Position numbers and translations under genes: made by a program. From Verrucomicrobiota bacterium (GTDB lineage Bacteria; Verrucomicrobiota; Verrucomicrobiia; Chthoniobacterales; Terrimicrobiaceae), in assembly GCA_026398275.1 (NCBI GenBank), contig JAPLTF010000054.1, positions 1 to 57,976 on the forward strand: a DNA stretch of 57,976 bases, read 5' to 3'. Under the pieces are notes generated by a model that was given only the letters and a program-made list of their open reading frames with translations, was not told the origin of the DNA and ran no database searches. Below are positions 11,035 through 39,164 of the stretch, one piece after another. Position 1 is the first letter of the stretch, and each line of letters opens with the position of its first letter.

Positions 11035-12732
<1,698 letters not shown>

Positions 12733-22572: not shown

Positions 22573-24426
22573 CTACCTGGCCGCGCCCCGGAAGCTTTTC
22601 CAGCGATCCAGCGGCATCGAGGCGAAGGCCATGAGGACGAGCTGGCTGATCATGAATCCAACCAGCCAGGGCAGGGCCTTGTTCATGAAGCCGTAGGAGT
22701 GGAGCCCGACGCCGAGCATGTTGACGCCGAACCAGGAGAAGCTGGTGATGACGTTGCCGAACAGGGCCATGATCATGAGCCCGCGCTGGCGGATGTAGCC
22801 GCCGAGGCGGGCGTGCAGGATGATCGCGCACCACAGGACGATGAGGAGCGCGCCGTTTTCCTTCGGGTCCCAGCCCCAGAACCGGCCCCAGGATTGATCC
22901 GCCCAGATGCCGCCGAGCACGGTGCCGACAAAGCTGAACAGAGTCGCAAAGCAGACCACGCCGTAGGTCATGCGCGTGAGCGACTGCGCGGCTTCCTTCG
23001 TCAGCGAGGAGGTGAAGACTCCGCGCACGACATAGATCAGCGCGAGCGTGCCAGCGAGGAACATCGCGGAGTAGCCGATCGTGATCGAGACGACGTGGGT
23101 CGCGAGCCAGATGTTCGTGTCGAGCACGGCCTGCAGCATCTCGAGCGTGTCGCCGCTGCCGGCAAGGTGGTGGGCGATGATGAGCGTGATGAACCCGATC
23201 GCCGCGGCGCAGGCAGAGCCCACGCCGTCCTTGAAGATCCGTTCGATGATGAGCCCGATGATCACGGTCCCCCAGCCGATGAAGATCGCCGACGAATAGA
23301 GGTTCGTGACCGGCGGGCGGCCCTGCAGATACATCCGCGAACCGAGTCCGAATGTATGAACCGCGAGTGCGAGCAGGAGCACGTAGAAGGCGGCGGTGCC
23401 CAGGCTCCGGTTTCCTGCCAGCCAGGAGGCGCACACCAGCAGAAACGCCAGCACGTAGAGGCCCATCGCCTGGTAGAACGGTTCGAGCTGGTTGAAGAGG
23501 AATTCAAAAGCGGCCCGGCCGGCCGGCTTCGGCTCGTTTTTCGCCATCCAGCCCGAGAGGTCGTCCAGGTGCCGGTTGAACTTCGCGGCATCCCCGCTGT
23601 GGTAGGCGTCGCCCACAAGCGCATAGGTTTTGGTGACGGGGTTGAGCTCGCCGGTGGAGATCGTCTGCAGGAGGCTGGCGCCGAGCGAGAGCCACTCCTC
23701 GCGCGGCCCCTTGCCCGCCGGATCCGGCGGCACGGGAAGCAGGTAGGCCCATTCCGCCATGTTCTGGAACCGCGAGGCGAGCTGCGCAAACGCTTCGAAC
23801 TTCTCCTCGTCGATCTTTTCGCCTTTTGCGCGCTTGGCTGTGGCCTCAAGGCCTGCGGGAATCGCCTTCACGAAGGCGTCGATCTCGCCCGCGAAATCCG
23901 GAGAATCCTCCGGTCGCAAGCTGTTCTTGAGCCGCTGGTAAAGCATCAGCGAGTTGCGCAGGTTGAAGACCGCGGTCTGGTAGGGGGTGCGGCTGGCGGA
24001 CTCGACATTTTCCACCTGCGCACCCTGCTTGTCGATCTTCTCCAGAAACGGCACGAGCTCGGCGTAGCTGAAATATTTCCGGTCGGTCTGCTCCCACCCG
24101 AACAGGCCGAGAACCTCGGGGTTGTGGATGACGAATGACGGGTGGGTGTCGGCAAGGCGGGGGTTGAACAGGACATCCGCCAGCCAGCGCCGCGCGTCGA
24201 TCGAGCGGCCGTCCTCAAGCCGCACCGTCTGCTTGCCGCGCAGGATGAGCAGCGAGGTGCGGGCCACCGTGTCGAGCGGCTTGTTTCGGCCGTCCGAGAG
24301 CACCGGGATCTTTGCGAACTTGACGAGATCGAACCCGTCGGGCGCGGATTTCGGCATCCGGGAATTCGAGGCGACCCAAAGCACTGCGACCGCCAGGGCG
24401 ATCCATGGGGAAATTTTTTTCATCAT
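22573..24426 (-). CDS. ccsA: Cytochrome c biogenesis protein CcsA (system II), with large N-terminal domain
   Basis: 617 residues. The first helix (MMKKISPWIALAVAVLW) is followed by about 290 residues that seem extracytoplasmic, then a C-terminal set of membrane helices. The haem-handling WWD-type motif is present as SWGRFWGWDPKENGALL, and histidines flank it (HVVSITIGYSAM, IILHARLGG). CcsA and ResB form the system II haem lyase that attaches haem to CxxCH motifs outside the cytoplasmic membrane. This fits the many multihaem cytochromes encoded divergently from this operon. The double start ATG-ATG at 24426/24423 leaves the first residue open. The order is lipoprotein-resB-ccsA. Confidence 0.88.
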   Translation of the reverse strand: MMKKISPWIALAVAVLWVASNSRMPKSAPDGFDLVKFAKIPVLSDGRNKPLDTVARTSLLILRGKQTVRLEDGRSIDARRWLADVLFNPRLADTHPSFVIHNPEVLGLFGWEQTDRKYFSYAELVPFLEKIDKQGAQVENVESASRTPYQTAVFNLRNSLMLYQRLKNSLRPEDSPDFAGEIDAFVKAIPAGLEATAKRAKGEKIDEEKFEAFAQLASRFQNMAEWAYLLPVPPDPAGKGPREEWLSLGASLLQTISTGELNPVTKTYALVGDAYHSGDAAKFNRHLDDLSGWMAKNEPKPAGRAAFEFLFNQLEPFYQAMGLYVLAFLLVCASWLAGNRSLGTAAFYVLLLALAVHTFGLGSRMYLQGRPPVTNLYSSAIFIGWGTVIIGLIIERIFKDGVGSACAAAIGFITLIIAHHLAGSGDTLEMLQAVLDTNIWLATHVVSITIGYSAMFLAGTLALIYVVRGVFTSSLTKEAAQSLTRMTYGVVCFATLFSFVGTVLGGIWADQSWGRFWGWDPKENGALLIVLWCAIILHARLGGYIRQRGLMIMALFGNVITSFSWFGVNMLGVGLHSYGFMNKALPWLVGFMISQLVLMAFASMPLDRWKSFRGAAR

Positions 24427-24437
24427 AAATCCGGCAG

Positions 24438-24562
24438 TTGCCCGCGAATCACGCAAATGAACGCGAATACAATCAGCAAGGTGGAAATGAGCGGGAACTC
24501 ACCCGCAGAGTGAATTCGCCTATTTTCACAAGTCTCTTTCATTCGCGTTTTTTCGTGACGGG
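24438..24562. repeat. Inverted repeat between ccsA and resB
   Basis: The 157-base gap between the two haem-lyase genes contains a repeat pair: TCACGCAAATGAACGCGAAT near 24449 and, inverted, ATTCGCGTTTTTTCGTGA near 24541. These resemble the AT-richer arms seen at 40196-40298. The pair could form a large imperfect hairpin in the resB-ccsA transcript. Confidence 0.5.
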
Positions 24563-24583
24563 CCTCTTCTGCTTTTTGGGACT

Positions 24584-25756
24584 TCATCGGGCGGGGGTGG
24601 ATTTCCGCCGGCGTAAAAATCCGACAAAATGGTAGGCGAACTGGTAGAGCAACCCGACCCCGACGATGACGCACGCCACATACGGCGCGACGAAGCTGGG
24701 GTTGTAGACATCCTGCAGGATCGTGGCCGTGTCGTTCTTTTCAAAGCCCGACTGGAAAAACGTCTCGCCGCGGTAGCGGAGCGGATGGTTCATGTAGATG
24801 AGCACGTCGCGGCTCTCGTTCCGCTCCGGATCTTTGAGGGCCGCTGCGGTCGCGAAGTTTTTCGGGATCTGCGTGCCGGGATAGCGCTCGTGCGTGAACT
24901 TCTGCAGCGTCAGGCTGTAGGGCTTGTAGTAGCGCTCCGGGCGCATCACGAGCCGCCACGGCTTGCCCGCGTGGGAAAATGTCTGCGGCTCGAGAATCTG
25001 GTCGGATACCAGCCAGGTGCCCAGGGACGTGGCGTCGGCCCCATTGCCGGTCGGCACCAACTCGATCACCACGCTCTGCAGGTCGCGCTCGTTCTGGGCG
25101 GTTGCACGCGGAACTTCCGTAACCGAAATCCGCGAGCCCTCGCCCTCGGTCGAGGCGGCTACGGCGTTCTGCTCCGCCTTGTCGAGCGGCTGGAACCGCG
25201 AGTTCTGGTAGAATCGCCGGACGTTGATCCGGAACGGCAGGCTCTCATCCTCGATGGTGCCGCCCTGCCTGAGCCGCGCCTCGGGGATCGCCGTCACCTG
25301 CTCGAGCTCCTTGTCCGACCCGTCGATCACCGCCAGCTCCATGGTCCGGGCATTTTCGGAATAGTTCTTCGTCTCACCCGGCCCCAGCCGCATGAAGCTC
25401 TCGACCGAGAACAGATCGGTGAACAGCCCGCCCGCAAGAATGATGATCAGCCCGAGGTGGGTGAGGTGGATGCCGAGCGTCTTCCACGACCACCGGAACC
25501 GGCGCAGGTGGGCGGCGATCAGGTTGAGCAGCAGGACCCCGCCGATGAGGTGTCCGCCCGGGAACACCGGGATCTTCAGCCCCTGCGAGGCCGACGGCCA
25601 CCACACAAAAATGCTCTGGAAATACCGCTGCTGCACCTCGTGGATCCCGAAGTTCACCTGCGCCATCGTGCCGGCGAAGACGAGCACGATCGCCAGGCAC
25701 AGGCAGATGAGGGTGAGCTGCAGGGACGAAATGAAGGCGAGAAACCGTTTCAGCAT
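24584..25756 (-). CDS. resB: Cytochrome c biogenesis protein ResB (Ccs1, system II)
   Basis: 390 residues. Helices occur at the N-terminus (SLQLTLICLCLAIVLVFAGT), around residues 65-85, at HLTHLGLIIILAGGLFTD and near the C-terminus (APYVACVIVGVGLLYQFAYH), with a large periplasmic loop between the third and last. This is the ResB/Ccs1 pattern; the protein is somewhat short for the family. ResB works with CcsA to deliver and attach haem. ATG 25756 is used because it begins just before the first helix; the in-frame extension upstream lies inside the lipoprotein gene. The gap to the upstream gene is five bases. Confidence 0.85.
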   Translation of the reverse strand: MLKRFLAFISSLQLTLICLCLAIVLVFAGTMAQVNFGIHEVQQRYFQSIFVWWPSASQGLKIPVFPGGHLIGGVLLLNLIAAHLRRFRWSWKTLGIHLTHLGLIIILAGGLFTDLFSVESFMRLGPGETKNYSENARTMELAVIDGSDKELEQVTAIPEARLRQGGTIEDESLPFRINVRRFYQNSRFQPLDKAEQNAVAASTEGEGSRISVTEVPRATAQNERDLQSVVIELVPTGNGADATSLGTWLVSDQILEPQTFSHAGKPWRLVMRPERYYKPYSLTLQKFTHERYPGTQIPKNFATAAALKDPERNESRDVLIYMNHPLRYRGETFFQSGFEKNDTATILQDVYNPSFVAPYVACVIVGVGLLYQFAYHFVGFLRRRKSTPAR

Positions 25757-25761
25757 CGCGG

Positions 25762-26928
25762 TCAGGGATGGAGTTGAACCGATCCGAGGAACTTGAGGAA
25801 TCCGGCCTTCTCCGCCGCCGCGAGGTTCTCGGGGGCGATGAGTTTGAAGAACCACGTGTTGCCTTCGAGCTTCGCCCAGCCCGCCAGGATGCGGCCCTTC
25901 GGACCGGCCATGTCCACCGTGAGGATCTCGCTGTCTTTGCCGGCGACCGGAACGATCTGCGCCTTCAGCTCGTCGGCTCCGATTTCGCCGAGCCCGATCT
26001 GCGAGCGCCAGCGGTTCACATTGCCGAGATCTCCGCCGCCGTCGCCGCCGAAAACGCTCACCGAGATATCCGCCGCCTCGCCGTTCTGCCCGGCAACCGC
26101 AAAGCTCGCGTAGCGCATGGAGCTGGGCGCGACCGAGTTCCACCCTGCGGGGACTTCCCATTTGATCTGCGGCTTCTCAGCGCCGGCTTCCGGTGCGGGT
26201 GCCGCTGCGCCGGGAGGAGTTGCCGCCGCGGGCGCGGCGTGTGCTGCGGGCTGCGCCGGCCCCGCTGCGGCCGGCTTCACTGTGCCGATCCATTCGATGA
26301 ACCCCGCCTTCTGAGCTGCGGCGAGTGCGGAGTTTCCGCGCATCTTGAAAAAGAATGTCCTGCCGTCGACGGATGCGATGCCGGCGACGATCCGTCCGTC
26401 TTTCGTCGCATCAGCGCCCTTCGGCAGCCCTTCGAGATCGACCACCGTCACATCGCCGAGCGGCGAGTTCACGTGCTGGGCGGTTTTTGCCAACTGCTCC
26501 GCCGAGATCGCAGGCTGCCCGAGCTGCGACAGCCAGCGGTTCACATTGTCGAGAGCCCCGCCGGCGGGCCCCGAAAGTGCCACAACGGAAATGTCCGCCA
26601 CCGCACCGTTGTCGCCCTTCACGAGGTAGCTCGCCAGCCGCATTGAAGAGGGGGGCTGAACCTCCCAGTTCGACGGCGGGGTTCCTGTGACTTCCGAAGG
26701 TTGTCCAGCCGGGGCCATCATGTCGCCGGGCGAGCCCATGGGGGGGTGGTTCGGCGGCATCGCTCCCATGCCGGAACTCCCGTCTCCAGACGCTTGAGGC
26801 ATGGGGGATTCCTGCTCCGCCTTGGCCACGCGATAAACCTTGACCTCGCTCTTGTCCTTGCAGCCGGAGAACGGCCATGCACACAAAACAAGGAATCCAT
26901 ACCACAAATGCGTTCGGGAAAAGTTCAT
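25762..26928 (-). CDS. Lipoprotein with two tandem copies of one unknown domain
   Basis: 388 residues, first gene of the resB-ccsA unit. The signal peptide ends in FSGC. After a Met/Pro-rich linker comes a domain of about 130 residues, then an Ala/Pro linker, then a second copy. Shared landmarks are PSSMRLAS and PSSMRYAS, VADISVVALSG and AADISVSVFGG, NVNRWLSQLGQ and NVNRWRSQIGL, and closing AAQKAGFIEWIGTV and AAEKAGFLKFLGSV. I do not know the domain's function. Location with system II maturation genes suggests an envelope role linked to cytochrome assembly, but this is inference. ATG 26928 is the signal peptide start. Confidence 0.72.
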   Translation of the reverse strand: MNFSRTHLWYGFLVLCAWPFSGCKDKSEVKVYRVAKAEQESPMPQASGDGSSGMGAMPPNHPPMGSPGDMMAPAGQPSEVTGTPPSNWEVQPPSSMRLASYLVKGDNGAVADISVVALSGPAGGALDNVNRWLSQLGQPAISAEQLAKTAQHVNSPLGDVTVVDLEGLPKGADATKDGRIVAGIASVDGRTFFFKMRGNSALAAAQKAGFIEWIGTVKPAAAGPAQPAAHAAPAAATPPGAAAPAPEAGAEKPQIKWEVPAGWNSVAPSSMRYASFAVAGQNGEAADISVSVFGGDGGGDLGNVNRWRSQIGLGEIGADELKAQIVPVAGKDSEILTVDMAGPKGRILAGWAKLEGNTWFFKLIAPENLAAAEKAGFLKFLGSVQLHP

Positions 26929-27169
26929 AGAGTCGGGGATTAATACAGGGCGGGTTGTGACGATGTCCAGATATTCCATTTTCCGCACGATTGTTTCCGC
27001 AGCACCACGTTCCAGAAATAACCGTCGGTCAGGAATAGACCGTTTTGGATCGCGTCCGTTCATATTATGATATGATCGGGCTGCAAAAATTTCCCACAGG
27101 AGAAGTTGCGCGTAATGGAGGCGCGATCATTCCCATTGGGTCAGATACCCGGAAGCTCGCTTCGGCATT

Positions 27170-27240
27170 GCTGCTGGAGGGACGACCTCCGTGTCGTCCG
27201 TGGATATCAACGGACCGGACAGAGCCGGTCCCTCCAAATG
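27170..27240. repeat. Dispersed GC-rich repeat ('GACCTCCGTGTCGTCC' family)
   Basis: The sequence GGAGGGACGACCTCCGTGTC followed by ACGGACCGGACAGAGCCGGT and CCCTCC contains short nested inverted repeats. A related stretch (GGGGCGGCCGCCGTGTCGCT) occurs at 30301-30320. It seems one of several repeat families scattered between genes here. Confidence 0.5.
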
Positions 27241-27300
27241 CCCCGGAGCTTGCCCCGGGGGTCTTGACTTTCGCCTCTCAAAAACGGGGGCGAGGACGTG

Positions 27301-27340
27301 GCAATAGACAAGCAGCAATTGCCAACCAGCAAGTAGCGGG
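27301..27340. repeat. Element shared upstream of both large cytochrome genes (copy 1)
   Basis: CAATAGACAAGCAGCAATTG followed by CCAACCAGCAAGTAGC matches 31008-31043 (CAATAGACAAGAAGACAATG, then CCAACCAGCAAGTAGC) with only a few differences. Both copies lie about 75 to 110 bases before the start codon of a multihaem cytochrome gene, in the same orientation. Confidence 0.65.
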
Positions 27341-27412
27341 CTCGTAGTAGCCGTGCTAATTTCAGCACAGTAACCAACACGTCGGAACTCCAATTCAACA
27401 CCATCCTCCTTT

Positions 27413-30169
27413 ATGAAAAACCTACTTAAATGCAGTCTTTTGCTGCTCAGCGCAGCGGTCATTGGATCACCCGCGAATGTCTTTGCGCGCGCTAGCTACG
27501 GCCCCGAGTGGGATTGCGCCTCATGTCACGATGACGGGAGAACGTGGGCAAGCGTCCACAGTGGAACTGGAGGTGGAGGCGGGACACCTCCCGGGACATA
27601 TACCGGGATTCCGACCCCTCCGCTGGCTCAGCTCGCCGGCACGATCTATCCGGGGGATTCGGTCTACCCGGGCGGCAGCCTGTATTATAAATACGCCCTG
27701 CAAACGAGAAAGGCCGGGACGGCTGTCGTCAGTTACACCGTCGCTGTAGCATCGCAAACTGCGGGTGCGAAGTGGATCCCCGCCGCCCCAGCGAAGCTTA
27801 CCACGAAGTTGATCAAGGGAACCACTCCGATCTCCAGTTTGATCGGTGCAATTCCTGCGGATTTTGTCGGTAGCGTGAAGCTCTCGCTGTCGGTCTACTT
27901 CACTGATGCCATCGGCGTAAACAAAGTGAGCATCTCACTCAAGCCGATCACGGTGGTGATCGCTCCGCCGGCCAACTTCTATGATGTCGGTTTTGGCAAC
28001 AGCGTCACGCTGGATGCCTCGGGCATTTCCACCGTAGGTCTGGGAGCCAACCCGGTCTACACATGGACTCAAAAACCAAATTCCCTCGGCAAGTTGACTC
28101 CTGGAGGTGTTCTGAGTTCCACAACGGGCAAGGTCGTCACATTGACGACGGGGTTAAAGGAACTCGTGGACACGACCGGACAGCCCGGCCTCATTGGTTT
28201 TGATAACGAAATGGTTGCGGACTCCACGTATGTCTATGAAGTCAAGGCGACGGGAAATAGAAGAACGTCCACCGGGACATTCACCGTTTCGTGTGCCGTT
28301 CAGTCTCCGGGGACATCCAGAATCCCGATCGGTGTCAATTCCTGCTATTTGGGCGGCAACTGGACATTGACTTCGAAACCGTCCGGCTCCACGGCAAATC
28401 TGACACATACGGCAGATGGCCTCGCGCAGTTGAGGCCCGATGTCGCGGGCAACTATACCCTCACCGACAACAAAACCAGCAACAGCACCATTACCATTAC
28501 AAACGCGGCCGCAAAGTATTCGTCTGCTGGCGCGGATTCCTGCTACAGCTGTCATGGGCCTGATAATCAATACGGTAAGAAGGACATGTGGACTCCGTGG
28601 TCAGAAACCGCCCATGCGACGATGACGCAGTGGGCTATCGACGGGGGGTCGAGTGCCTACAACGAGACCTGCCTAAAATGTCACGCCGTCGGCTTCAACC
28701 AGTCGGTCGCGGCTGTCGGCAACCGGAACTTCAAGGCCGTGTCGAACGAACTCGGTTGGAAGTTTCCGACCAAGATGCAAGTGGGTAATTTCGATGGGAT
28801 GCCTGTGCGGTTGCAGCAGCTCTCCGGCATTCAGTGCGAAAGTTGCCATGGCCCAGGTATCCACCAGACTTCGACTGGCAATGGAACTGTATCAACTGGC
28901 GGCGCACCATCGAAGAGCATGGACGTTCAGGTCTGTGCGAGTTGCCACCAGGACGGGACCAGTTACAACCGTGTCGCGCAGTGGGAGAATAGCCCGCACT
29001 CCGAAGGCTATAATGAGGTCAGCAAAGCCGAGGGGACAAATGCTGGCTGCGCACGCTGCCACGCGGCCAATGGGTTCACCTACGTTGCGAAGCAGGTTAA
29101 TGGCTTGATCGAGGCGGGCACCGATGCGGCCACCGCGCAAATCAATGTCGGCAAGGTCAATGTTCCCACCGCAAATCTGGGAGTCGGCCCGCTGACCTGC
29201 CAAACCTGCCATGATCCGCACGACAATTTCGGGGATGATGGACGCCACCAGCTGCGTATCGTCGATACCGTCGTGATTGGTGACCTGGCCAACCCCGGCA
29301 CGGTTACGCTGACCAACCTCGGCAACTCGGGGACCTGCATATATTGCCATAGCTCACGGCGCCTGGCCGAGCAGTCGGCATCTGGCACCAAGCAATACAC
29401 GAAGACCCGCAGCGGTTCCATCTCCGGCCCGCACGAAAGCCCCGTGGCCGAGGTGTTCAGTGGAAATGGCGCGACGGATTACACCGGGTCGAATGGCACC
29501 ATCACGATGGGGAACTCGGCTCATAGCTCTGTATCCGATTGCCAAGCCTGCCACATGTATCAGCTGCGCGATGCGGACAGCAGAGGCAAAGCGCTGGATT
29601 ATGTGTCAATGAATGGAACCTACACCCCGGTTACCCATGCGCTCTACACAGATCTGCGCAATCTGCTCGGAGATCACACGTTCAGCGTGGCCAGCGAGTA
29701 TACCACAGGCAATGTGACCAGAGAAGTTCAGAACGTCGCAACCTGCAACCAGTGCCACAAGGACAAGAAAGGCGCGGGCCTGGTGACCACGTTTGACTTC
29801 AAGGGTTCCACTGCGAAGGATTACGACGGCAATGGCGTCGTCGAGGGCGTCCAGACGGAAACCCAGAACCTGCTCGAGAAGGTCCGGCTCCTGATCAACC
29901 AAACAGGCATCGCGTCCACCAAGAATGCGGCGGGTGCCTTCGCAGGGTTCTCTTCGACCGGAATCTCTTCGACCGATCCGCTCAAAACCGCGCAGCAGAA
30001 GGCGGCTTGGAACTGGATGCTGATCAATCGCGATGGCAGCCGCGGTGTCCACAACACCCAGTTCACCATCCGCCTGCTCCAGACCACTTGGACGGACCTG
30101 AACACGAAGTGGAAAGCTGATCCGGCGGCTACGTTCAAGGCAGCCTATCCAGCGGCGGTCCTCAGGTAG
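27413..30169 (+). CDS. Exported decahaem c-type cytochrome
   Basis: 918 residues with a signal peptide (KCSLLLLSAAVIGSPANVFA). Ten CxxCH haem sites are visible: CASCH at residue 35, then after a beta-rich stretch of about 330 residues without haem (Ig/Fn3-like in look) nine more between residues 377 and 778 (CYSCH, CLKCH, CESCH, CASCH, CARCH, CQTCH, CIYCH, CQACH, CNQCH). A calcium-loop-like DYDGNGVVEG follows, and the end has the GVHNTQFTIRLL pattern common in multihaem cytochromes. The size, export signal and lack of membrane helix fit a periplasmic or cell-surface electron carrier. It has no Shine-Dalgarno; the leader before ATG reads CCATCCTCCTTT. A strong terminator follows at 30195. Confidence 0.88.
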   Translation: MKNLLKCSLLLLSAAVIGSPANVFARASYGPEWDCASCHDDGRTWASVHSGTGGGGGTPPGTYTGIPTPPLAQLAGTIYPGDSVYPGGSLYYKYALQTRKAGTAVVSYTVAVASQTAGAKWIPAAPAKLTTKLIKGTTPISSLIGAIPADFVGSVKLSLSVYFTDAIGVNKVSISLKPITVVIAPPANFYDVGFGNSVTLDASGISTVGLGANPVYTWTQKPNSLGKLTPGGVLSSTTGKVVTLTTGLKELVDTTGQPGLIGFDNEMVADSTYVYEVKATGNRRTSTGTFTVSCAVQSPGTSRIPIGVNSCYLGGNWTLTSKPSGSTANLTHTADGLAQLRPDVAGNYTLTDNKTSNSTITITNAAAKYSSAGADSCYSCHGPDNQYGKKDMWTPWSETAHATMTQWAIDGGSSAYNETCLKCHAVGFNQSVAAVGNRNFKAVSNELGWKFPTKMQVGNFDGMPVRLQQLSGIQCESCHGPGIHQTSTGNGTVSTGGAPSKSMDVQVCASCHQDGTSYNRVAQWENSPHSEGYNEVSKAEGTNAGCARCHAANGFTYVAKQVNGLIEAGTDAATAQINVGKVNVPTANLGVGPLTCQTCHDPHDNFGDDGRHQLRIVDTVVIGDLANPGTVTLTNLGNSGTCIYCHSSRRLAEQSASGTKQYTKTRSGSISGPHESPVAEVFSGNGATDYTGSNGTITMGNSAHSSVSDCQACHMYQLRDADSRGKALDYVSMNGTYTPVTHALYTDLRNLLGDHTFSVASEYTTGNVTREVQNVATCNQCHKDKKGAGLVTTFDFKGSTAKDYDGNGVVEGVQTETQNLLEKVRLLINQTGIASTKNAAGAFAGFSSTGISSTDPLKTAQQKAAWNWMLINRDGSRGVHNTQFTIRLLQTTWTDLNTKWKADPAATFKAAYPAAVLR

Positions 30170-30194
30170 AAAACCGCAGTCAGAATCAACAAGC

Positions 30195-30236
30195 AACCCG
30201 GTCGGCCAACCATGCCGACCGGGTTTTGCTTTTTTT
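30195..30236 (+). terminator. Rho-independent terminator after the decahaem cytochrome
   Basis: A perfect 12-base-pair stem AACCCGGTCGGC/GCCGACCGGGTT with a seven-base loop, followed by TTGCTTTTTTT. It lies 26 bases after the stop, so the decahaem gene is probably a separate transcript from the next cytochrome. Confidence 0.9.
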
Positions 30237-30542
30237 GGCGCCCCGGTAGAGCCGAATGCCGCGATGAGAATCTCTCCCGAAAGCAATTTTTCGAGTTGAA
30301 GGGGCGGCCGCCGTGTCGCTCCATGGTGGGCACGGAGGAAAACCGGAAATTATGCCGAATCATTCTGTCCCGATGTCATTCCCCTGATCAACTGCTGATA
30401 CCACCTCTCGGAGAAAATTGGACTTCGCAGGAGCAAGGGGGGAACGGGCGTCTCGCCCGTTTGGGCACTGGCTTTGCAGCGCGGACGAGTGTCTTTCACA
30501 GGCGGAAGACCTGCGCGATAGCGCCTCGCCAGGAGGGAAGGA

Positions 30543-30619
30543 CGAATGTTTGGTGCAGGGAGCACAACCAGGCGGCGAGGGCAGCCGCCCGACCGACTGC
30601 CGCAGGCAGCCCGCAGGGC
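30543..30619. repeat. Composite repeat also present at 42503-42828
   Basis: Bases 30543-30560 are the exact reverse complement of CCCTGCACCAAACATTCG at 42583-42600, and the match continues into AGCACAACC. Bases 30595-30619 (GACTGCCGCAGGCAGCCCGC and on) match 42804-42828 with one change. Both parts therefore occur together at the two sites. Confidence 0.7.
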
Positions 30620-31007
30620 ATAATGAGCGGGAGCGAACGGGTCAACTGATACCAAATTCACTGCGTAACAGGTAAAATTCTGCGGCGCGCCGGGACGTCA
30701 CGCCCTACCTATTGCGCTGGTAGGGTTGGGCCTCCTGACCGACCGCTGCCGGTCATTTCATCAACCTATTTCAAAGTGAAACTGGTATGATACCGCCGCG
30801 AAGCGGAGCAACAAGTTTCTCAAAATGCGGCCTCCGGAATTCATTCTCCCACGCATGAAAAATATTCATCCCCAAAAAAATATTTTGGGATCCGAAAGAT
30901 GTGCCCCTTCCGCAACGTGCCAGAGAGATATTTCTATCGCTCTCAACCAGAGCAAGTAGCGCAGATGATCGGCGCGGCTCATTCCGAAAAAAAATTCTCG
31001 ACGCACA

Positions 31008-31043
31008 CAATAGACAAGAAGACAATGCCAACCAGCAAGTAGC
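31008..31043. repeat. Element shared upstream of both large cytochrome genes (copy 2)
   Basis: This is the partner of the copy at 27301-27340, sharing GCCAACCAGCAAGTAGC exactly and CAATAGACAAG before it. It lies about 78 bases upstream of the octahaem cytochrome start. Confidence 0.65.
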
Positions 31044-31120
31044 CGAGACATTCCCTCCTCTGATAGTAACATCGTCCGTCCGGCCACTTATTAGAAATTC
31101 TTAACGACCACGACAATTCC

Positions 31121-31963
31121 ATGAGCCAACGCGTTTTTTCACAGTTCACCGCCTCCCTCCGCCGGGGATTCCAAAGCAAGCGCACAAAACTTTTCTGGAT
31201 TTCCGGATGTGGTGCAGCTGTCGCGCTGGCGCTGGTTTCCTGCGGCACATTGACCCATCCGATCATGGCTCCCCCGAGTATCCCGGGTGCCACTTTTGTG
31301 GGGTCCTCCGCCTGTGCCGACTGCCACGAGGACATCACGCGGGATTTCAAGACTGCCGGGCACTCCCGTCTGCAGGCCAAGGGCAAGAATGCGGAAGGGG
31401 CCGGCTGCGAATCCTGCCACGGCCCGGGCAGTCTGCACGTCAGCTCCGGCGGCGGAGCCCGCACGATCGTCAACCCGCGCAAGGATCCGGAAACCTGTTT
31501 CCAGTGCCACCTGGAAATCCGCGCGAAGTTCAGCCTCCCATACCGCCATGCGGTCATGGAGGGCCGGCTGGGCTGCGCAGACTGCCACAACCCACACAAG
31601 GGTTCGATGACCAAGGGAGGGGGAGCCACAAACGTCATGGACGTGAACGACGTCTGCTACCAGTGCCACACCGCGCAGAGGGGCCCGTTTGTTTTTGCCC
31701 ACGAGGCGACGAGGGAAGGCTGCGTGACCTGCCATGACCCACACGGATCCGTCAACCAGAAGATGCTGGTCGCCCGGAACCAGATGCTCTGCCTGAAGTG
31801 CCACTTCCAGCAGCAGAACGTCTCGGGTCAGGTTACCGCGCCTGGGCAGCTCATGATCGGCAGCGTGAACCACCAGCGACTGGTCACCCAGGGCACCTGC
31901 TGGTCGGCCGGATGCCACGAGGCGGTTCACGGCTCACAAGTCAATTCCCACCTGAGATATTAA
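31121..31963 (+). CDS. Octahaem MtrA/DmsE-like cytochrome, lipoprotein signal
   Basis: 280 residues. The N-terminus is basic, then hydrophobic, ending in a lipobox-like LVSC, so it is probably an outer-membrane lipoprotein. Seven CxxCH motifs follow (CADCH, CESCH, CFQCH, CADCH, CYQCH, CVTCH, CLKCH), and an eighth site near the C-terminus reads CWSAGCH, a CX4CH spacing, inside a tail (CWSAGCHEAVHGSQVNSH) that matches the end of MtrA/DmsE-type cytochromes. MtrA-type proteins plug an outer-membrane barrel and carry electrons across the membrane. The next gene, 14 bases on, encodes a large barrel, which supports this role. Fewer haems than MtrA (ten). Confidence 0.85.
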   Translation: MSQRVFSQFTASLRRGFQSKRTKLFWISGCGAAVALALVSCGTLTHPIMAPPSIPGATFVGSSACADCHEDITRDFKTAGHSRLQAKGKNAEGAGCESCHGPGSLHVSSGGGARTIVNPRKDPETCFQCHLEIRAKFSLPYRHAVMEGRLGCADCHNPHKGSMTKGGGATNVMDVNDVCYQCHTAQRGPFVFAHEATREGCVTCHDPHGSVNQKMLVARNQMLCLKCHFQQQNVSGQVTAPGQLMIGSVNHQRLVTQGTCWSAGCHEAVHGSQVNSHLRY

Positions 31964-31977
31964 CCCTCCTTTTATCT

Positions 31978-34269
31978 ATGAAAAACATGCACTGGTTTCC
32001 TCTCCATCGCGGCATTTGCTACGGGGCCATTCTTTTCTGCTCAGGATTACTGGGCGGGCAGGCCTTGCTGGCCGCCGATGCCAAAGCCACCAAGGTTCCG
32101 ATTGAAACGCCTGAGGAGGATCCTCTCTTCACGAACTGGGTGGATCTGACGCTGGGCGGTCTCATTCCCCATGGCAATATGGCGCAATTCCGCCAGAACA
32201 ACCCCACCCTGGGGCCGGTCTTTGGCGGGATCAGCGACATGCACATCCAGGAGAGCGCTGGCAAGGCCATCGTCACTCTCGATGCCCGTGCGATTTTTGC
32301 GAACAGCGACTACAATGTGAAGCTGGATATCACTCTGCCTGATGTGGGCTACATCCGCGGCGGGTTCACCGAATTCTGCACCTACTCGAACGGCAACGGC
32401 GGCTACCTGCCCCCCAACAGCGCCCTGCCGAACTCGATGCTCGCCGATGGGCTCTTTTTCCCCGGCCAGGCTTTCGCGCTCTATCGCGGCAGCCTCTGGG
32501 TCGAGATGGGCCTTCGCGTGCCGCACTTTCCGGAAATCACGCTTCGCTACGAACATGCGTTCCGGAACGGGCAGGAGGATTCCACGATCTGGGGTGGGGC
32601 CCAAACCGGCGCTCCCGCCCCTCCGGGAGTTAACACGGGCGTCTCCAACGTCCGGAAAATCGTCCCCGCATACCGCAATATCAGCGAGACCCGCGACATC
32701 TTCACCTTCAACGCCAAACACACATTCGGAAAACCCGAGTCGTTCGGCAACACCGAGGTCAATCTGGGGATGCGCTACGAATTTGACCGGAACAACAATT
32801 CGCTCAATTTTCAAAACCTGCCCGGCGCCCAGCCGACCGGGACGTCTGCGAACAACTACTACATCACGCAGACCGACAGTTTGTCTCTTGCGCTTTACGA
32901 CGGGCATATCTCCACCGTGACGCGCTTCGGGGACAAGCTCTGGCTCACAATGGGCTTCTCCTACTCCGCCGCATCCTCGGATATCGGAGGGAACCGCATT
33001 GCCGGGCCAGCCAACGGCGTCGCCTATTCGCCGATGTATAACGGCCTCTGGTATGCCGGCAAATCCGGTGCCTATCTGGACCTCGACGGGGGGTCGAACT
33101 TCGGGCAGGGCGTCGCGACTCTCAACCTCATGTGGAAACCGATCGAGTCGCTGCAGATCACCCCGTCGGTCCGGGTCGAATGCGCGAACACCAGAAGCAC
33201 CAGCTCCTACTATACACAGTATGGGCAGGGAGGCGGAAATGGAAGCCAGAGCGGCGTCCAGCTCACGCCCACCCTGGTGGACAGCCATGTCTTTTTAACC
33301 GCCATTTCCCAGTGCCTTCAAATCCGATACACGGGCGTCGAAAACTGGGTGTTTTACGCGCAGGGGGACTGGTCGGAGGAATATCAAAGCCGTGGCGACT
33401 CGACCCCTGGAAACAGCTTCAGCACACCCAATTCTGTGCTGAACTTCAGTGCCAACAACTCCTCCCTCTCACAAAAATACATGTTCGGCGCAAACTGGTA
33501 TCCCCTGCCGAACCTGAACATGGCCGTGCAATACTACCTCCAGCTTCAGGATTTCTCGCAGGACATCCACTCCGACGATCCGGTCCAGAGCAACCAGCGG
33601 CTGGTCGGCCAGAGCTGGAACACCAGCGATGTCAATTTTCGCGTGACCTGGCAGCCTCTGCCGTCTGTCTCGCTCGTGAGCCGCTACGACTTCCAGCGGA
33701 CCACGATCAATTCCCAGTGGGCGGCGGATCCGGGCCTGCTGACGGATTCCCCGCAGGGGGCGCTCTTTACGGCACCGGATGGACAGAGCGCCGTCATCAC
33801 CAACAACATGTTCACCGAGACGCTCACCTGGACCCCGACCGACCGCCTGTATCTGCAGGGCAGCCTTTCCTATGTGCTGAACAAGATCGCCTCGCCCGCC
33901 GCGCAACAAACCCCCGGCAACGGCATCAGCTCTGCGGACGTGCCGGGAAGTTCGGCCATCCTGAACTTCAACAACAATTACTGGACCGCAAGCGCCGGAG
34001 TCGGATTTGCCATCGATCCCAAAACCGAGATCCGCGGGGATTTTACCTTTTACAGTGCGAACAATTATGTGAACAATGAACAGTATGGCGTTCCTTATGG
34101 GTCATCTGCTTCGGAATACACATTCTCTGCCAGCCTCTCCCGCCAGATCACAAAAAATGTGCGCTTGTCCGTGAAGTATTATTTTGACACCTATGTGGAC
34201 CAGCTCTCCGGCGGAAACAGCAACTACACCGCACAGATGATCAGTTCCTCGCTCCAGGTCCGGTTCTAA
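31978..34269 (+). CDS. Large outer-membrane beta-barrel, putative MtrB-like conduit porin
   Basis: 763 residues: a signal peptide (ICYGAILFCSGLLGGQALLA), a short N-terminal stretch, then alternating polar/aromatic strands through to a C-terminal strand ending in Phe (MISSSLQVRF), the usual outer-membrane insertion signal. Length and strand number fit a barrel of the MtrB/PioB class (about 26 strands), though I cannot confirm the family by reading. It lacks the N-terminal CxxC of MtrB. The octahaem cytochrome ends 14 bases upstream and a monohaem cytochrome starts 56 bases downstream, so a porin-cytochrome unit is likely. The leader before ATG reads CCCTCCTTTTATCT, with no Shine-Dalgarno. Confidence 0.75.
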   Translation: MKNMHWFPLHRGICYGAILFCSGLLGGQALLAADAKATKVPIETPEEDPLFTNWVDLTLGGLIPHGNMAQFRQNNPTLGPVFGGISDMHIQESAGKAIVTLDARAIFANSDYNVKLDITLPDVGYIRGGFTEFCTYSNGNGGYLPPNSALPNSMLADGLFFPGQAFALYRGSLWVEMGLRVPHFPEITLRYEHAFRNGQEDSTIWGGAQTGAPAPPGVNTGVSNVRKIVPAYRNISETRDIFTFNAKHTFGKPESFGNTEVNLGMRYEFDRNNNSLNFQNLPGAQPTGTSANNYYITQTDSLSLALYDGHISTVTRFGDKLWLTMGFSYSAASSDIGGNRIAGPANGVAYSPMYNGLWYAGKSGAYLDLDGGSNFGQGVATLNLMWKPIESLQITPSVRVECANTRSTSSYYTQYGQGGGNGSQSGVQLTPTLVDSHVFLTAISQCLQIRYTGVENWVFYAQGDWSEEYQSRGDSTPGNSFSTPNSVLNFSANNSSLSQKYMFGANWYPLPNLNMAVQYYLQLQDFSQDIHSDDPVQSNQRLVGQSWNTSDVNFRVTWQPLPSVSLVSRYDFQRTTINSQWAADPGLLTDSPQGALFTAPDGQSAVITNNMFTETLTWTPTDRLYLQGSLSYVLNKIASPAAQQTPGNGISSADVPGSSAILNFNNNYWTASAGVGFAIDPKTEIRGDFTFYSANNYVNNEQYGVPYGSSASEYTFSASLSRQITKNVRLSVKYYFDTYVDQLSGGNSNYTAQMISSSLQVRF

Positions 34270-34325
34270 GAATCCCGTCCGCCAACCCACTCTCTGCAGC
34301 AACAATAAATCCAAGCAATACCAAC

Positions 34326-34646
34326 ATGAAAATCAAAACCACACTCCTCCTCACCATCGGATCCCTGATCTGCGCGGCCAGCCTCGCTTCGGCGGCGGAC
34401 GCCGCGGAAAATTGGGGCAAACTCTGCGCTTCCTGCCACGGCAAGGACGGCAGCGGCGCCACGGTCATGGGCAAGAAAAGCGGCGTCCTCGACTATCGCG
34501 ATGCCGCCGTGCAGGCGAAGTTCACCGACGCGCAGGCCACCCAGATCATCGCTGACGGCAAGGACAAGATGAAGGCCTTCAAAGACAAGCTGACTCCCGA
34601 CGAAATCAAGGCGCTGGTCGCCTACGTTCGCGCATTCAAGAAGTAG
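34326..34646 (+). CDS. Small periplasmic monohaem cytochrome c
   Basis: 106 residues with a signal peptide (MKIKTTLLLTIGSLICAASL, cut after ASAA). One CASCH site lies at residues 34-38, and the class I cytochrome fold ends in LTPDEIKALVAYVRAF. A Met in GKDKMKAFKDKL or ATVMGKKSG is the likely second haem ligand. Such soluble cytochromes shuttle electrons in the periplasm, here plausibly between the NapC-type membrane cytochrome and the MtrA-like conduit. It is followed by a hairpin that ends seven bases before the next start codon. Confidence 0.9.
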   Translation: MKIKTTLLLTIGSLICAASLASAADAAENWGKLCASCHGKDGSGATVMGKKSGVLDYRDAAVQAKFTDAQATQIIADGKDKMKAFKDKLTPDEIKALVAYVRAFKK

Positions 34647-34680
34647 TCGGCGATTTGTTCAGCAAAGCAGGAAAATGAGA

Positions 34681-34704
34681 AGAGCACGGCGCGAGCCGTG
34701 CTCT
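34681..34704 (+). promoter_or_regulatory. Hairpin abutting the start of the NapC-type gene
   Basis: AGAGCACGGC and GCCGTGCTCT pair perfectly over ten bases around a GCGA (GNRA) tetraloop, followed by CTCTTATAT and the ATG at 34712. It may end the upstream transcript or hold the ribosome site closed; the U-tract is weak (CTCTTAT). Confidence 0.7.
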
Positions 34705-34711
34705 CTCTTAT

Positions 34712-36199
34712 ATGAGTGCCGCACCCGAAAGCCGGTTTGTTTTGCGCAAGTTGATCCGTAACTGGATCAGCCTTGCGGGTGCGGTCATCGCGGTCGGCAG
34801 TTTCTTCGCGTTTCTGCTGCTGTTTGCTCTGGACATGCTTTCGGAGCACGGGAACCCCTACATGGGGATCCTGGCCTATGTGGTCGCCCCGGGGTTTCTG
34901 TTCTCCGGCATCGCCCTGATCGCACTGGGGTTCTGGCTGCATCTCCGCCAGGAGCGCCGCGCCGTGCCGGATGCTCCCCCGGTCGCGCTGACCATCGACC
35001 TGTCGAGGCCCCGCGACCGGAAAATCCTCGGGGTGTTCATCGCGGGCAGCGTGGTCTTTTTGTTCATGACCGCGCTCGGCAGCTACCAGACCTACCATTA
35101 CACCGAGTCGGTTCAGTTCTGCGGCCGGGCCTGCCACGTCCCGATGGATCCCCAGTTTGTCACCTCCCAGCATTCCACCCACGCCCGCGTGGACTGCGTG
35201 GCCTGCCATGTGGGGAATGGCGCAACCGCCTACCTGAAAACCAAGATCAGCGGCATGCGGCAATTGTATCACGTCACACGTGGAGACTTCCAACGGCCGA
35301 TCCGCGCGGATTCCACAAAGCTTCGCCCGGCTCGGGACACGTGCGAGCAGTGCCACTGGCCGGAGAAATTCACGGGCGGTCTCGACCGCACCAACCGGCA
35401 TTACCTTTCGGATGAAGCAAACACGCCGTTTTCGGTCCGCCTCCTGCTCAAAGTGGGCGGCAGCAACCCGCTCCACGGCCCGCCGGATGGCATCCACTGG
35501 CATGTCAGCCCCGCCAACAAGGTGGAATACATCTCGACCGATGACCAGCAGCTGAACATCCCGTGGGTCCGCCAGACGACTGCCGACGGCAAGGTCACAG
35601 AATACCGCAACCCCGACTTCAAGGGCGACATCTCGAAGTTCCCCATCCACACGATGGACTGCATTGACTGCCACAACCGCCCCTCGCACAAATTCCTGCC
35701 GCCGAACGATGCGGTCGACCTCTCGATCACGAGCGGGCGCATCGACCGCTCGATCCCGTGGGTGAAACAAAAAATGGTGGCGGCGCTGGTCGGCGAGTAT
35801 GCGACCCGCGACGAGGCCCTGAAAAAAATCGACGAGTCGCTGCGGGCGGCCTATCCGGACAATCCCAAGGTGGATGCCGTGATCGCCGAGACCAAATCGA
35901 TCTACAATGCCAACTTCTTCCCGGAGATGAAGGCCGACTGGCGGGCCTACCCCGACCACGTGGGCCACAAAAACTGGGAGGGTTGCTTCCGCTGCCACGA
36001 CGGCAAGCACAAGACCGCCGACGGCGCGGGCTCGATCCAGGGGAACGATTGCAACTCTTGCCACATCATCATGGCCCAGGGCAGCGACGAGGACATGACC
36101 AAGCTCAGCGCCAAGGGATACGATTTTGTCCACATCGACGCCGAGTATTCGGACTTCTCCTGCGCCGAATGCCACACCGGTGCCGCTCCCAAAGAGTAG
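34712..36199 (+). CDS. NapC/NirT-type multihaem inner-membrane cytochrome (quinol oxidation, ImcH/CbcL-like role)
   Basis: 495 residues. Three membrane helices lie in the first 125 residues (WISLAGAVIAVGSFFAFLLL, a second near residues 50-72, and VFIAGSVVFLFMTALGSYQT). Haem sites follow: FCGRACHVPM (CX3CH), then CVACH, CEQCH, CIDCH, CFRCH, CNSCH and CAECH, seven in all. NapC/NirT proteins take electrons from the quinol pool to periplasmic carriers; the heptahaem Geobacter protein ImcH, needed for extracellular electron transfer, is the closest comparison I can offer from memory. The first site has three residues between the cysteines; codons TGC GGC CGG GCC TGC CAC were read directly. It closes the cytochrome series. 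Confidence 0.82.
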   Translation: MSAAPESRFVLRKLIRNWISLAGAVIAVGSFFAFLLLFALDMLSEHGNPYMGILAYVVAPGFLFSGIALIALGFWLHLRQERRAVPDAPPVALTIDLSRPRDRKILGVFIAGSVVFLFMTALGSYQTYHYTESVQFCGRACHVPMDPQFVTSQHSTHARVDCVACHVGNGATAYLKTKISGMRQLYHVTRGDFQRPIRADSTKLRPARDTCEQCHWPEKFTGGLDRTNRHYLSDEANTPFSVRLLLKVGGSNPLHGPPDGIHWHVSPANKVEYISTDDQQLNIPWVRQTTADGKVTEYRNPDFKGDISKFPIHTMDCIDCHNRPSHKFLPPNDAVDLSITSGRIDRSIPWVKQKMVAALVGEYATRDEALKKIDESLRAAYPDNPKVDAVIAETKSIYNANFFPEMKADWRAYPDHVGHKNWEGCFRCHDGKHKTADGAGSIQGNDCNSCHIIMAQGSDEDMTKLSAKGYDFVHIDAEYSDFSCAECHTGAAPKE

Positions 36200-36244
36200 T
36201 GGGAGGGGGCGATGCAACAGTCGAAAGCAGGGCGAACAGGCTTC

Positions 36245-36306
36245 AAAGGAGCGCGGGCATCCTGCCCGCTTCGTCGGACATGCGGGCGGGACGCCCACGC
36301 TCCTTT
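36245..36306. repeat. Dispersed inverted repeat, GC-rich
   Basis: AAAGGAGCGCGGGCATCCTG through CCCGC pairs with GCGGGCGGGACGCCCACGCT through CCTTT over a 12-base loop with a few mismatches. It belongs to the same family as 12825, 39246 and 39947. It lies between the NapC-type gene and korA and could end transcription. Confidence 0.7.
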
Positions 36307-36440
36307 CAGCCCGAAAACCGCGATTCCTGTAGCGGAACGGGGAACCCGTTTCGCAATCGACGTTTCCGGGTTCAAGAAGCGTCTTTGCAACATTGTTGCA
36401 GATTGCGCCAACCACTGATAGAACGACCGATATTTTCATC

Positions 36441-36476
36441 ATGAAATCCAGCAGCCCAACCCTTCCCCGCCAGTGA
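36441..36476 (+). CDS. Putative 11-residue leader peptide coupled to korA
   Basis: An ATG at 36441 opens an 11-codon frame (MKSSSPTLPRQ) whose TGA overlaps the korA GTG as GTGA. No strong Shine-Dalgarno is seen before either start. It could set korA translation by coupling, or be chance. Confidence 0.3.
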   Translation: MKSSSPTLPRQ

Positions 36477-38260
36477 GTAATCCCAGTTCCATCAGCAACA
36501 GCGTCATCCGCATCGCGGGCAATTCCCAGGATGGCATCCAGTCGGTCGGCACCATGCTGGCCCGGATGGCCGGCCGGATCGACATGGACGTGATGACCTA
36601 CATGACGATCCCCTCGACGATCTCGGGCGGGCCTTCGATTTTCCAGGTCCACATGGGCACGGCCACGGTGCTCACCCCGGGCGACCTCGCGGACGTTCTG
36701 GTCGCATTTTACCAGCACTCGTATGAGAACCACATCGAGAGCCTGCGCGATGGCGGGGTCCTGATCTACGACGACACCCATGTGGATCCCGACCTCGATG
36801 CCCTGCGGCAGCGGCGGATCACGCCGGTGGCGGTTCCGATGACCGCGCTCACCGTGGAGACGGTGGGCGGAACGGGCACGCAGAAGGGGAAAAATATCTT
36901 CCTGCTCGGGCTTCTCACACGGGTTTACCGGCTGGACTACGACAAGGTCGCGGCGCTCGTCAAAGAGCAGTTCCGCGGCAAGGACGAGTCGGTCGTTCGC
37001 AACAACCTCCTCGCTCTCGAGGCCGGCTACGCCTACCAGATCGGCGACGTCGGATCGTTTTTTACTTTTGACATCAAACCCGAATCCGGGGAGACGAATG
37101 TCACGATGACCGGCAACCAGGCGCTCGCTTACGGTGCCATCGCGGGCGGCATCCGGTTTGGTGCGGGCTATCCGATCACCCCATGGACGGAGGTCATGGA
37201 AATCCTCCGCCGCGAGCTGCCCCGCTACGGCGGCACATTCATCCAGACCGAGGATGAGCTGGCGGCCATCGCAGCGGCGATCGGCGGGGCCTACGGCGGG
37301 ACTCCCTCGCTCACCGGATCTTCCGGGCCGGGCATCTCGCTCAAGACCGAGGCGCTCGGGTTCGCGGTGATGTCGGAGCTGCCGCTGGTCATCATCGACG
37401 TGCAGCGCGGGGGACCATCGACCGGCCTCCCCACGAATGTCGAGCAGTCGGATCTCTCGATCGCGCTCAATGGCAGCCACGGCGACGCGCCGCGCGTCGT
37501 CCTCGCCGCCGCGAACGTGGAGGATTGCTTTTATATCATGATCGAGGCCGCGCAGATCGCCCGTCGGTTCAGCGTCCCGGTCATCGTCCTCTCCGATCAG
37601 GCGCTCGCAACCCGGCTCGAGGCCTTTCCCTATCCGAACCTCGATTCGCTGGTCGAGGAGCCGTCGCTCAATCTCGCGACCCGCGAGTCGCACAAGCCGT
37701 ATCCGCTGGACGCCCCGACCCACCACGCGCCTCCGGGAACAAAGGTCGTCGACGGGCGGTATCCGACGATCACCGGTCTCGAGCACGACGAATACGGGAA
37801 CCCGTCCGGAAGCGCGCAGATGCACACCCGCATGACCCATCGCCGGAGCGACAAGCTCCGCCGCCTGGCCGCCGAGCTGCCGCCGCCGGAGGTCTATGGG
37901 GCGAAGGATGCCAGGACATTGCTGGTGGGGTGGGGGTCCACCTGCGGCGTGATCCGCTCGGTGGTCGACCAGTCGATCACGTCCGGGGAACCGCTGGCCG
38001 CGCTTCACCTGCGGAACCTGAACCCGCTGCCTCCCTCGCTCGCGGAGATCTTTGCAAAATATGACAACGTCCTCGTCGTCGAGCTCAACGAGGGCGGCGT
38101 CAACGGCTGCGGACAGCTCGGCAGGCTGCTGCGCGCGGAAACATGCCAGCCTCAAATTCGTGGAATCACAAAATCCGATGGCGGATCGTTCCGCGTGAGC
38201 GAGGTTCTCGAGCGCGTCCGCGGAATCCTCGAGTCCACGCGCCGCCCCGCCACACTTTAA
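36473..38260 (+). CDS. korA: 2-oxoacid:ferredoxin oxidoreductase, gamma-alpha fusion subunit
   Basis: 595 residues. Residues 1-185 are the gamma domain (VIRIAGNSQDGIQSVGTML, ISGGPSIFQVHMG) and residues 205-595 the alpha domain, with GAGYPITPWTEVMEIL, TGSSGPGISLKTEALG and IDVQRGGPSTGLPT. With the beta subunit it makes acyl-CoA and reduced ferredoxin from a 2-oxoacid and CoA, or the reverse; 2-oxoglutarate is the usual substrate for this architecture, but pyruvate or branched acids are possible. The GTG start at 36473 is chosen from the family start and the overlap with a small upstream frame. The beta subunit starts four bases on. Confidence 0.88.
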   Translation: MSNPSSISNSVIRIAGNSQDGIQSVGTMLARMAGRIDMDVMTYMTIPSTISGGPSIFQVHMGTATVLTPGDLADVLVAFYQHSYENHIESLRDGGVLIYDDTHVDPDLDALRQRRITPVAVPMTALTVETVGGTGTQKGKNIFLLGLLTRVYRLDYDKVAALVKEQFRGKDESVVRNNLLALEAGYAYQIGDVGSFFTFDIKPESGETNVTMTGNQALAYGAIAGGIRFGAGYPITPWTEVMEILRRELPRYGGTFIQTEDELAAIAAAIGGAYGGTPSLTGSSGPGISLKTEALGFAVMSELPLVIIDVQRGGPSTGLPTNVEQSDLSIALNGSHGDAPRVVLAAANVEDCFYIMIEAAQIARRFSVPVIVLSDQALATRLEAFPYPNLDSLVEEPSLNLATRESHKPYPLDAPTHHAPPGTKVVDGRYPTITGLEHDEYGNPSGSAQMHTRMTHRRSDKLRRLAAELPPPEVYGAKDARTLLVGWGSTCGVIRSVVDQSITSGEPLAALHLRNLNPLPPSLAEIFAKYDNVLVVELNEGGVNGCGQLGRLLRAETCQPQIRGITKSDGGSFRVSEVLERVRGILESTRRPATL

Positions 38261-38264
38261 AATC

Positions 38265-39164
38265 ATGGAAACTGACACTCTCACAATCGAACCCGCCGAA
38301 CCCATGACCCGCGATGATCTGAAGGCCGACCGCCCGACATGGTGTCCGGGCTGCGGAGACTTCAGCGTCCTCGCGATGTATCAAAAGTTCCTCGTGGACC
38401 GGCAGTATCCGCAGGAAAAGATCGCGACCCTCTCTGGCATCGGCTGCTCGTCGAGGTTCCCGTATTTCATCAACACCCACAGCGTCCACTTCATCCACGG
38501 CCGGATCATCCCGTTTGCGACCGCCCTCAGCCTGACCCGCCCGGAGCTCTTTCCGTTTGTCATCATCGGCGACGGCGACGCGTTCTCGATCGGCGGCAAC
38601 CACCTCACCCACGCCGCCCGCAAGAATGTGAACCTGAATGTCATCATTCTCAACAACCAGGTCTACGGACTCACCAAAAAACAGACGTCCCCGACGTCCC
38701 CGCTCGGCTTCCGCTCGAAGACGGACCCCTGGGGGTCGCGCATGACCCCGGTCAACCCGGCGCGCCAGATCATCGGCGCAGGCGCCACGTTCTTTGCCCG
38801 CGCCTCGGCGGCCAATCCCAAACACCTCATCCAAATGTATGAGCGCATGTCCGCGCACGAAGGCTTCAGCGTTCTCGAGGTGCTCTCCGAGTGCGTCCAG
38901 TTCTTCAAGGGCTCGTTCGACGGAGCGTCGAGCGGCAAGGGAGGCGACTTTGTCGAGATCGGCCCGGATCACGATGTGACGGACGAGGGCGCGGCATTCG
39001 CGCTGGCCGAGAAACCGTTCCCGGGAGTCTTCGGCGTATTCCATGAGGTCCGCCGCACCACGCTCAACGAGATGGAGCAGGAGAACATCCGCGCCGTCGC
39101 CCCCGCCGAACTCCAGCGCCCGACGGTCGACAAACTCAAGGACTCGTTCAACCGCCTCACCTGA
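38265..39164 (+). CDS. korB: 2-oxoacid:ferredoxin oxidoreductase, beta subunit
   Basis: 299 residues with the thiamine-diphosphate motif GDGDAFSIGGNHLTHAARKN through NN (IILNNQVYGLTKKQ). Cysteines that hold the single 4Fe-4S cluster are in WCPGCGDF and GIGCSSRFP, with a further one in ECVQFF. It matches two-subunit KorAB-type enzymes that lack extra ferredoxin domains. It follows the gamma-alpha subunit by four bases. A perfect inverted repeat lies 81 bases beyond its stop. Confidence 0.92.
   Translation: METDTLTIEPAEPMTRDDLKADRPTWCPGCGDFSVLAMYQKFLVDRQYPQEKIATLSGIGCSSRFPYFINTHSVHFIHGRIIPFATALSLTRPELFPFVIIGDGDAFSIGGNHLTHAARKNVNLNVIILNNQVYGLTKKQTSPTSPLGFRSKTDPWGSRMTPVNPARQIIGAGATFFARASAANPKHLIQMYERMSAHEGFSVLEVLSECVQFFKGSFDGASSGKGGDFVEIGPDHDVTDEGAAFALAEKPFPGVFGVFHEVRRTTLNEMEQENIRAVAPAELQRPTVDKLKDSFNRLT

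Follow-up and report, generated by a model that had tools for sequence, protein, structure and literature searches.

Gene clusters in which a large porin gene adjoins that of an eight-haem periplasmic cytochrome were described in Verrucomicrobia by He et al. 2017 (PMC5615132), some of them also encoding an extracellular multihaem cytochrome. In the passages of that paper dealing with these clusters, Opitutus terrae PB90-1 is listed among the carriers, and homologues of the Shewanella and Geobacter systems are stated to be absent; a 2019 paper (PMC6344600) repeats the report of the Verrucomicrobial clusters. The Geobacter Pcc system (OmbB-OmaB-OmcB) is reported not to be homologous to MtrABC (PMC6344600). 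ImcH proteins are 495-519 residues long, with three N-terminal TM segments, an adjacent atypical CX3CH motif and six CX2CH motifs (Zhong and Shi 2018, PMC6295460). The same authors found ImcH homologues only in Fe(III) reducers, and no mtrAB or mtoAB genes beside imcH.

We analysed a locus at positions 22573-39164 of contig JAPLTF010000054.1 (GCA_026398275.1), from a Verrucomicrobiota bacterium of the Terrimicrobiaceae; the window hereafter designates the whole stretch of DNA analysed, 57,976 nt long. An earlier note on this DNA had read the locus as a porin-cytochrome conduit. Every gene that it named was found, haem counts included, as well as one that it had missed, a lipoprotein gene on the minus strand between the ResB and decahaem cytochrome genes. 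The features are as follows:

22573..24456, minus strand: CcsA, System II haem export and attachment (PF01578, E 6e-25; TIGR03144, E 1e-39, under its cut-off)
24584..25756, minus strand: ResB, System II cytochrome c maturation (PF05140, E 7e-17)
25762..27063, minus strand: lipoprotein containing two repeats, encoded upstream of ResB (actual start probably near 26928; lipobox Cys68)
27302..27337, plus strand: 36-nt upstream element, copy 1, ahead of the decahaem gene
27413..30169, plus strand: exported cytochrome with ten haems, probably the terminal one at the outer face, in an MtrC-like position (10 CXXCH; PF22113, E 4e-14)
30195..30225, plus strand: intrinsic-terminator-like hairpin ending the decahaem gene (12-pair stem and T run)
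31008..31043, plus strand: 36-nt upstream element, copy 2, ahead of the octahaem gene
31121..31963, plus strand: octahaem lipoprotein of the MtrA/DmsE family, putative periplasmic wire (7 CXXCH and one CX4CH)
31978..34269, plus strand: outer-membrane beta-barrel of 763 aa, MtrB-like sheath by predicted fold
34326..34646, plus strand: small exported c-type cytochrome with one haem, probably a shuttle in the periplasm (PF13442, E 2e-13)
34712..36199, plus strand: heptahaem cytochrome of the inner membrane, ImcH-type and probably a menaquinol oxidase (6 CXXCH and one CX3CH; PF03264, E 6e-11)
36473..38260 and 38265..39164, plus strand: KorA and KorB, 2-oxoacid:ferredoxin oxidoreductase (TIGR03710 over its cut-off; PF02775)

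The octahaem lipoprotein, the 26-strand barrel, the monohaem cytochrome and the heptahaem cytochrome make up the core of the conduit (31121-36199), in which the barrel gene starts 14 bp past the octahaem gene. Only three reading frames of the window harbour at least two CXXCH motifs, and all three are multihaem genes of this locus, indicating that their clustering is not due to chance.

Judging from its sequence, the octahaem lipoprotein is a shortened protein of the MtrA/DmsE family. Its profile retrieved MtrA of the solved Mtr complex (PDB 6r2q_A, E 4.4e-39; the entry is entitled 'Structure of the Mtr complex', and the molecule name printed for chain A is wrong). The protein also matched NF041028 (GSU2203; E 9e-55) and TIGR03508 (DmsE; E 4e-47), both below the curated cut-offs (for DmsE, a score of 160.8 against 192.2), and all 21 relatives in the alignment matched both models. 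Its eight haem sites comprise seven CXXCH motifs and, as the last one, the CX4CH motif CWSAGCH, without which the count of eight does not hold. This CX4CH and the lipobox Cys41 are invariant in the 21 relatives, all of which have eight haem sites and not the ten of the MtrA wire. In the alignment to MtrA, haems 1-2 correspond to haems 1-2 of the latter and haems 3-8 to its haems 5-10, and the protein reads as a probable MtrA minus one two-haem unit. The AlphaFold model of the octahaem protein, made without haem, was poor (pLDDT 45).

The barrel has no Pfam or NCBIfam family match of its own, and the MtrB/PioB profile PF11854 did not match it at E 0.1; one of its 21 relatives touched MtrB_PioB, at E 0.06. 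Searches of PDB sequences with the profile of the barrel alignment and with a related Acidobacteriota barrel returned no relative, nor did a profile search of genome contigs with the barrel alone, whereas the search with the ImcH alignment did return relatives. The AlphaFold2 model built from 21 sequences (pLDDT 76.4) has 26 strands, and MtrB has 26 strands too. Foldseek ranked MtrB (6r2q_B) first, at E 8e-14, and structural realignment gave it a Z score of 22.7 over 554 residues with an rmsd of 3.7, the next chain scoring 16.2. As MtrB leads both structure rankings by far, the predicted barrel is MtrB-like in fold, a likeness that sequence alone would miss. The modelled fold matches MtrB better than any transporter. 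Phosphate-porin, VDAC-like and TonB-transporter assignments were considered and set aside: five relatives touch Porin_O_P and many receptors have Z scores of 14-16, but MtrB is 6.5 Z units higher. With an MtrB-fold barrel, an MtrA-family octahaem protein and export signals present on the cytochromes, the porin-cytochrome reading of the locus stands.

Like MtrCAB/MtoAB/PioAB of Shewanella and others, the locus combines an MtrA-family wire, an MtrB-fold barrel and a multihaem cytochrome that is probably an outer one. It differs from them in having eight haems rather than ten in the wire, which is a lipoprotein with one CX4CH site, a barrel that sequence profiles do not recognize, and an ImcH-type partner instead of CymA. 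By description, the locus also shares with Geobacter Pcc an eight-haem periplasmic cytochrome, a barrel and a probable outer cytochrome; it is set apart from that system, again by description, by the homology of its wire to MtrA. The closest likeness is to the clusters of He et al. 2017 (PMC5615132), which have the same large porin gene beside that of an eight-haem periplasmic cytochrome, and the novelty implied by the earlier note is not supported, since clusters of this kind had already appeared in that paper. What differs from the passages describing those clusters is the recognition of an MtrA-family octahaem protein and an MtrB-fold barrel; ImcH, ResB-CcsA and the 36-nt element are not mentioned in them. 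Contrary to the statement made there, the sequence matches place the wire in the MtrA family, and the predicted model gives the barrel an MtrB fold.

The decahaem protein has 918 residues, exactly 10 CXXCH motifs and an N-terminal hydrophobic export signal. It harbours the MtrC/MtrF domain PF22113 (E 4e-14), and no OmcA/MtrC whole-protein model matched it. In the window its gene constitutes a separate unit, shut by a strong terminator. The 36-nt element lies 76 bp ahead of its start codon and 78 bp ahead of that of the octahaem gene; it matches no other site within this stretch, and the genome as a whole contains its 18-nt core exactly twice. A duplicated promoter region would be the simplest reading of this pair, and consensus sigma-70 promoters showed no excess over chance. 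A diverged copy is found upstream of the octahaem gene in PowLak16_MAG3 (L048). Decahaem matches at E 1e-20 were found in 12 other genomes, all 12 of which carry the conduit. As orthologues directly precede the octahaem and barrel genes in four genomes and the two window genes have the 36-nt upstream element in common, sequence evidence indicates that the decahaem cytochrome belongs to the conduit system. Other lineages have a different, nine-haem protein in its place. These partners bear on the idea that the octahaem-barrel pair serves a specific surface reductase, in the manner of DmsE-DmsF, rather than metal or humic reduction. The match to the DmsE family profile speaks for it, and there is a precedent in Shewanella, where a barrel and an MtrA-like cytochrome serve the extracellular DMSO reductase. 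We nevertheless give it hardly any chance, as no molybdopterin reductase gene was recognized in the locus and the partner that recurs is a further multihaem cytochrome.

On the quinol side, the heptahaem cytochrome has 495 residues, hydrophobic segments at 17-45, 50-78 and 103-126, a CX3CH motif at 137 and six CX2CH motifs, which is the full published ImcH signature. The earlier note had called it a NapC/NirT-type membrane cytochrome on a route from quinol, and its placement on the quinol side is supported. Full-length relatives at 40-45% were collected from Melioribacter, Acidobacteria, KSB1, Omnitrophota and Calditrichota in the collection search with the ImcH alignment; these phyla overlap those listed for ImcH, and Geobacter does not appear among the 80 loci listed. 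By its sequence features, the protein is a probable ImcH-type menaquinol oxidase. It shares with ImcH of Geobacter sulfurreducens the length of 495 aa, the three TM segments, the CX3CH beside them and the six CX2CH, but its gene adjoins a conduit, whereas no mtrAB or mtoAB was found adjacent to imcH by Zhong and Shi (PMC6295460). The monohaem cytochrome recurs between the barrel and heptahaem genes in relatives.

We surveyed 188 genomes of the class, with thresholds of E 1e-40 for the octahaem protein, E 1e-3 for the barrel and E 1e-20 for ImcH. The octahaem protein and the barrel occur in an identical set of 47 genomes, and ImcH in 40, of which 38 are inside that set and 2 outside; as the surveyed genomes are related to each other, P values computed for this co-occurrence overstate independence. 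In 20 neighbourhoods that we fetched, the octahaem gene invariably lies next to the barrel gene, the monohaem gene is usual and the ImcH gene is often near. The order octahaem-barrel-monohaem-ImcH is contiguous in many loci, including those of named Verrucomicrobial MAGs, and the gene order thus recurs in other Verrucomicrobiota, as the earlier note had proposed to verify. Among the matches listed, the closest relative is PowLak16_MAG3 (ImcH 78%). Between the first monohaem gene and the ImcH gene, the latter locus encodes a four-haem cytochrome, a 4Fe-4S protein and an NrfD-type membrane protein (L048:6194-9047), possibly a second quinol-linked module; no such set is present in the window locus. 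The distribution of the module within the family is patchy, since the window's genus has another genome that lacks it, as do four more of the family. More distant pairs of an MtrA-like cytochrome and a related barrel, with ImcH, were found in Omnitrophota (L121) and Acidobacteriota (L102) contigs. A genome consisting of one 5,957,605-bp contig and matching Opitutus terrae in size (G093) has a single hit each for the barrel (E 2e-62), the octahaem protein (E 2e-104) and ImcH (E 6e-149), and this isolated strain thus appears to carry the module.

The lipoprotein-ResB-CcsA set lies beside the module in 8-9 of the 20 neighbourhoods, the lipoprotein itself being present in 8. The proposal that the conduit has its own haem-attachment genes holds as far as linkage is concerned, but not for dedication: the window pair could be a general system, as a single further ResB, beside nrfHA, is encoded in this genome, with three CcsA-type proteins in all. 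The nrfHA nitrite reductase genes, on contig 39 of the same genome (L147), come with their own ResB and CcsA. The lipoprotein encoded at 25762-27063 belongs to no Pfam family, and its lipobox Cys68 is invariant in nine relatives. It has two internal repeats, is conserved beside ResB-CcsA and may be a maturation factor.

Taken together, the sequences and models make it quite likely that the genes of this locus provide a complete route by which electrons leave the quinol pool and cross the outer membrane, with net outward flow as anaerobic respiration and without KorAB as a component. In the proposed mechanism, the ImcH-type heptahaem cytochrome would oxidize menaquinol at the inner membrane, and the monohaem cytochrome would ferry the electrons over the periplasm to the octahaem lipoprotein, two haems shorter than MtrA and presumably seated in the MtrB-like barrel of 26 strands; computation supports the family and the fold, and the complex is a putative one. 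The exported decahaem cytochrome would then receive the electrons at the outer face and pass them to an outside acceptor, e.g., humics or Fe(III). CcsA-ResB may attach the haems, including those of the unusual CX4CH and CX3CH sites. On balance, electrons would flow outward in the anaerobic respiration of a facultative aerobe; the organism is probably one, since its genome encodes four haem-copper oxidases and one bd oxidase.

These same oxidases would suit an inward flow through the same conduit, in which external Fe(II), reduced humics or partner cells supply electrons to quinone or, via the monohaem cytochrome, to a terminal oxidase, and MtoAB and PioAB conduits, which lack an extracellular cytochrome, have been suggested to work inward (PMC6344600). 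We regard this direction as unlikely, however, as the quinol-side protein bears the signature of ImcH, with homologues found only in Fe(III) reducers (PMC6295460), and the same gene set is present in the 5,957,605-bp genome matching Opitutus terrae, a strictly anaerobic, saccharolytic species (PMC2613244). On both grounds, outward flow appears more likely than inward.

The earlier note had counted KorAB among the parts of the conduit, which the relatives do not support: adjacency is not conserved. None of the other 187 class genomes has a close KorA homologue within 20 kb of the module, and KorAB directly adjoins module genes in one of the 80 other loci listed, an Opitutaceae contig with the order KorA-KorB-monohaem-ImcH (L076). 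A functional KorAB, passing electrons from 2-oxoacid oxidation via ferredoxin towards the conduit, would be in line with that contig and with the co-occurrence of KorA and conduit, a close KorA being present in 73 of the 188 genomes, i.e., 39 of the 47 carriers against 34 of the 141 others. The excess among carriers also fits anaerobic metabolism. Against a functional link are the lack of a close KorA near the module in the other class genomes sampled and the 273-bp gap, including a GC-rich repeat, that parts the ImcH gene from that of KorA. Moreover, ferredoxin is not known to donate electrons to quinones unless another complex intervenes. We therefore deem this link very unlikely, and KorAB is probably, from gene neighbourhoods, a neighbour rather than a component of the conduit. 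The GC-rich, REP-like repeat between the ImcH and KorA genes (36244-36286) is 86% identical to another copy at 12821-12863.

Relative to the openly licensed literature, beyond which later work may already report the same, our analyses add the MtrA/MtrB relationship, the coupling to ImcH, a cognate decahaem cytochrome and the wide distribution. We tentatively propose, with chances that we put at slightly less than even, that these loci represent a distinct type of conduit, widely inherited in Verrucomicrobia and carried by about a quarter of the genomes sampled from the class. It would be characterized by a lipid-anchored, MtrA-derived wire one two-haem unit shorter and by an MtrB barrel that has diverged; an ImcH-type quinol oxidase of its own would accompany it almost without exception, and haem-attachment genes of its own in many cases. 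If so, extracellular respiration would be a common trait in a phylum not known for it. Should the conduit work in the proposed way, roughly one in four of the class genomes sampled could respire to outside acceptors, with a bearing on carbon oxidation in anoxic soils and humic waters. The presence of an MtrA-type wire and an ImcH-type quinol oxidase in one cluster offers a testable whole pathway, of which the isolate Opitutus terrae appears to be a carrier.

Elsewhere in the window, we noted a 1191-aa open reading frame without Pfam match (49436-53011) and, at 7722-11330, an NRPS-like protein with condensation, AMP-binding and thioesterase domains. A 33-bp tandem repeat at 39742-39894 encodes the Gly/Trp/Asn/Arg-rich tail of a small exported protein.
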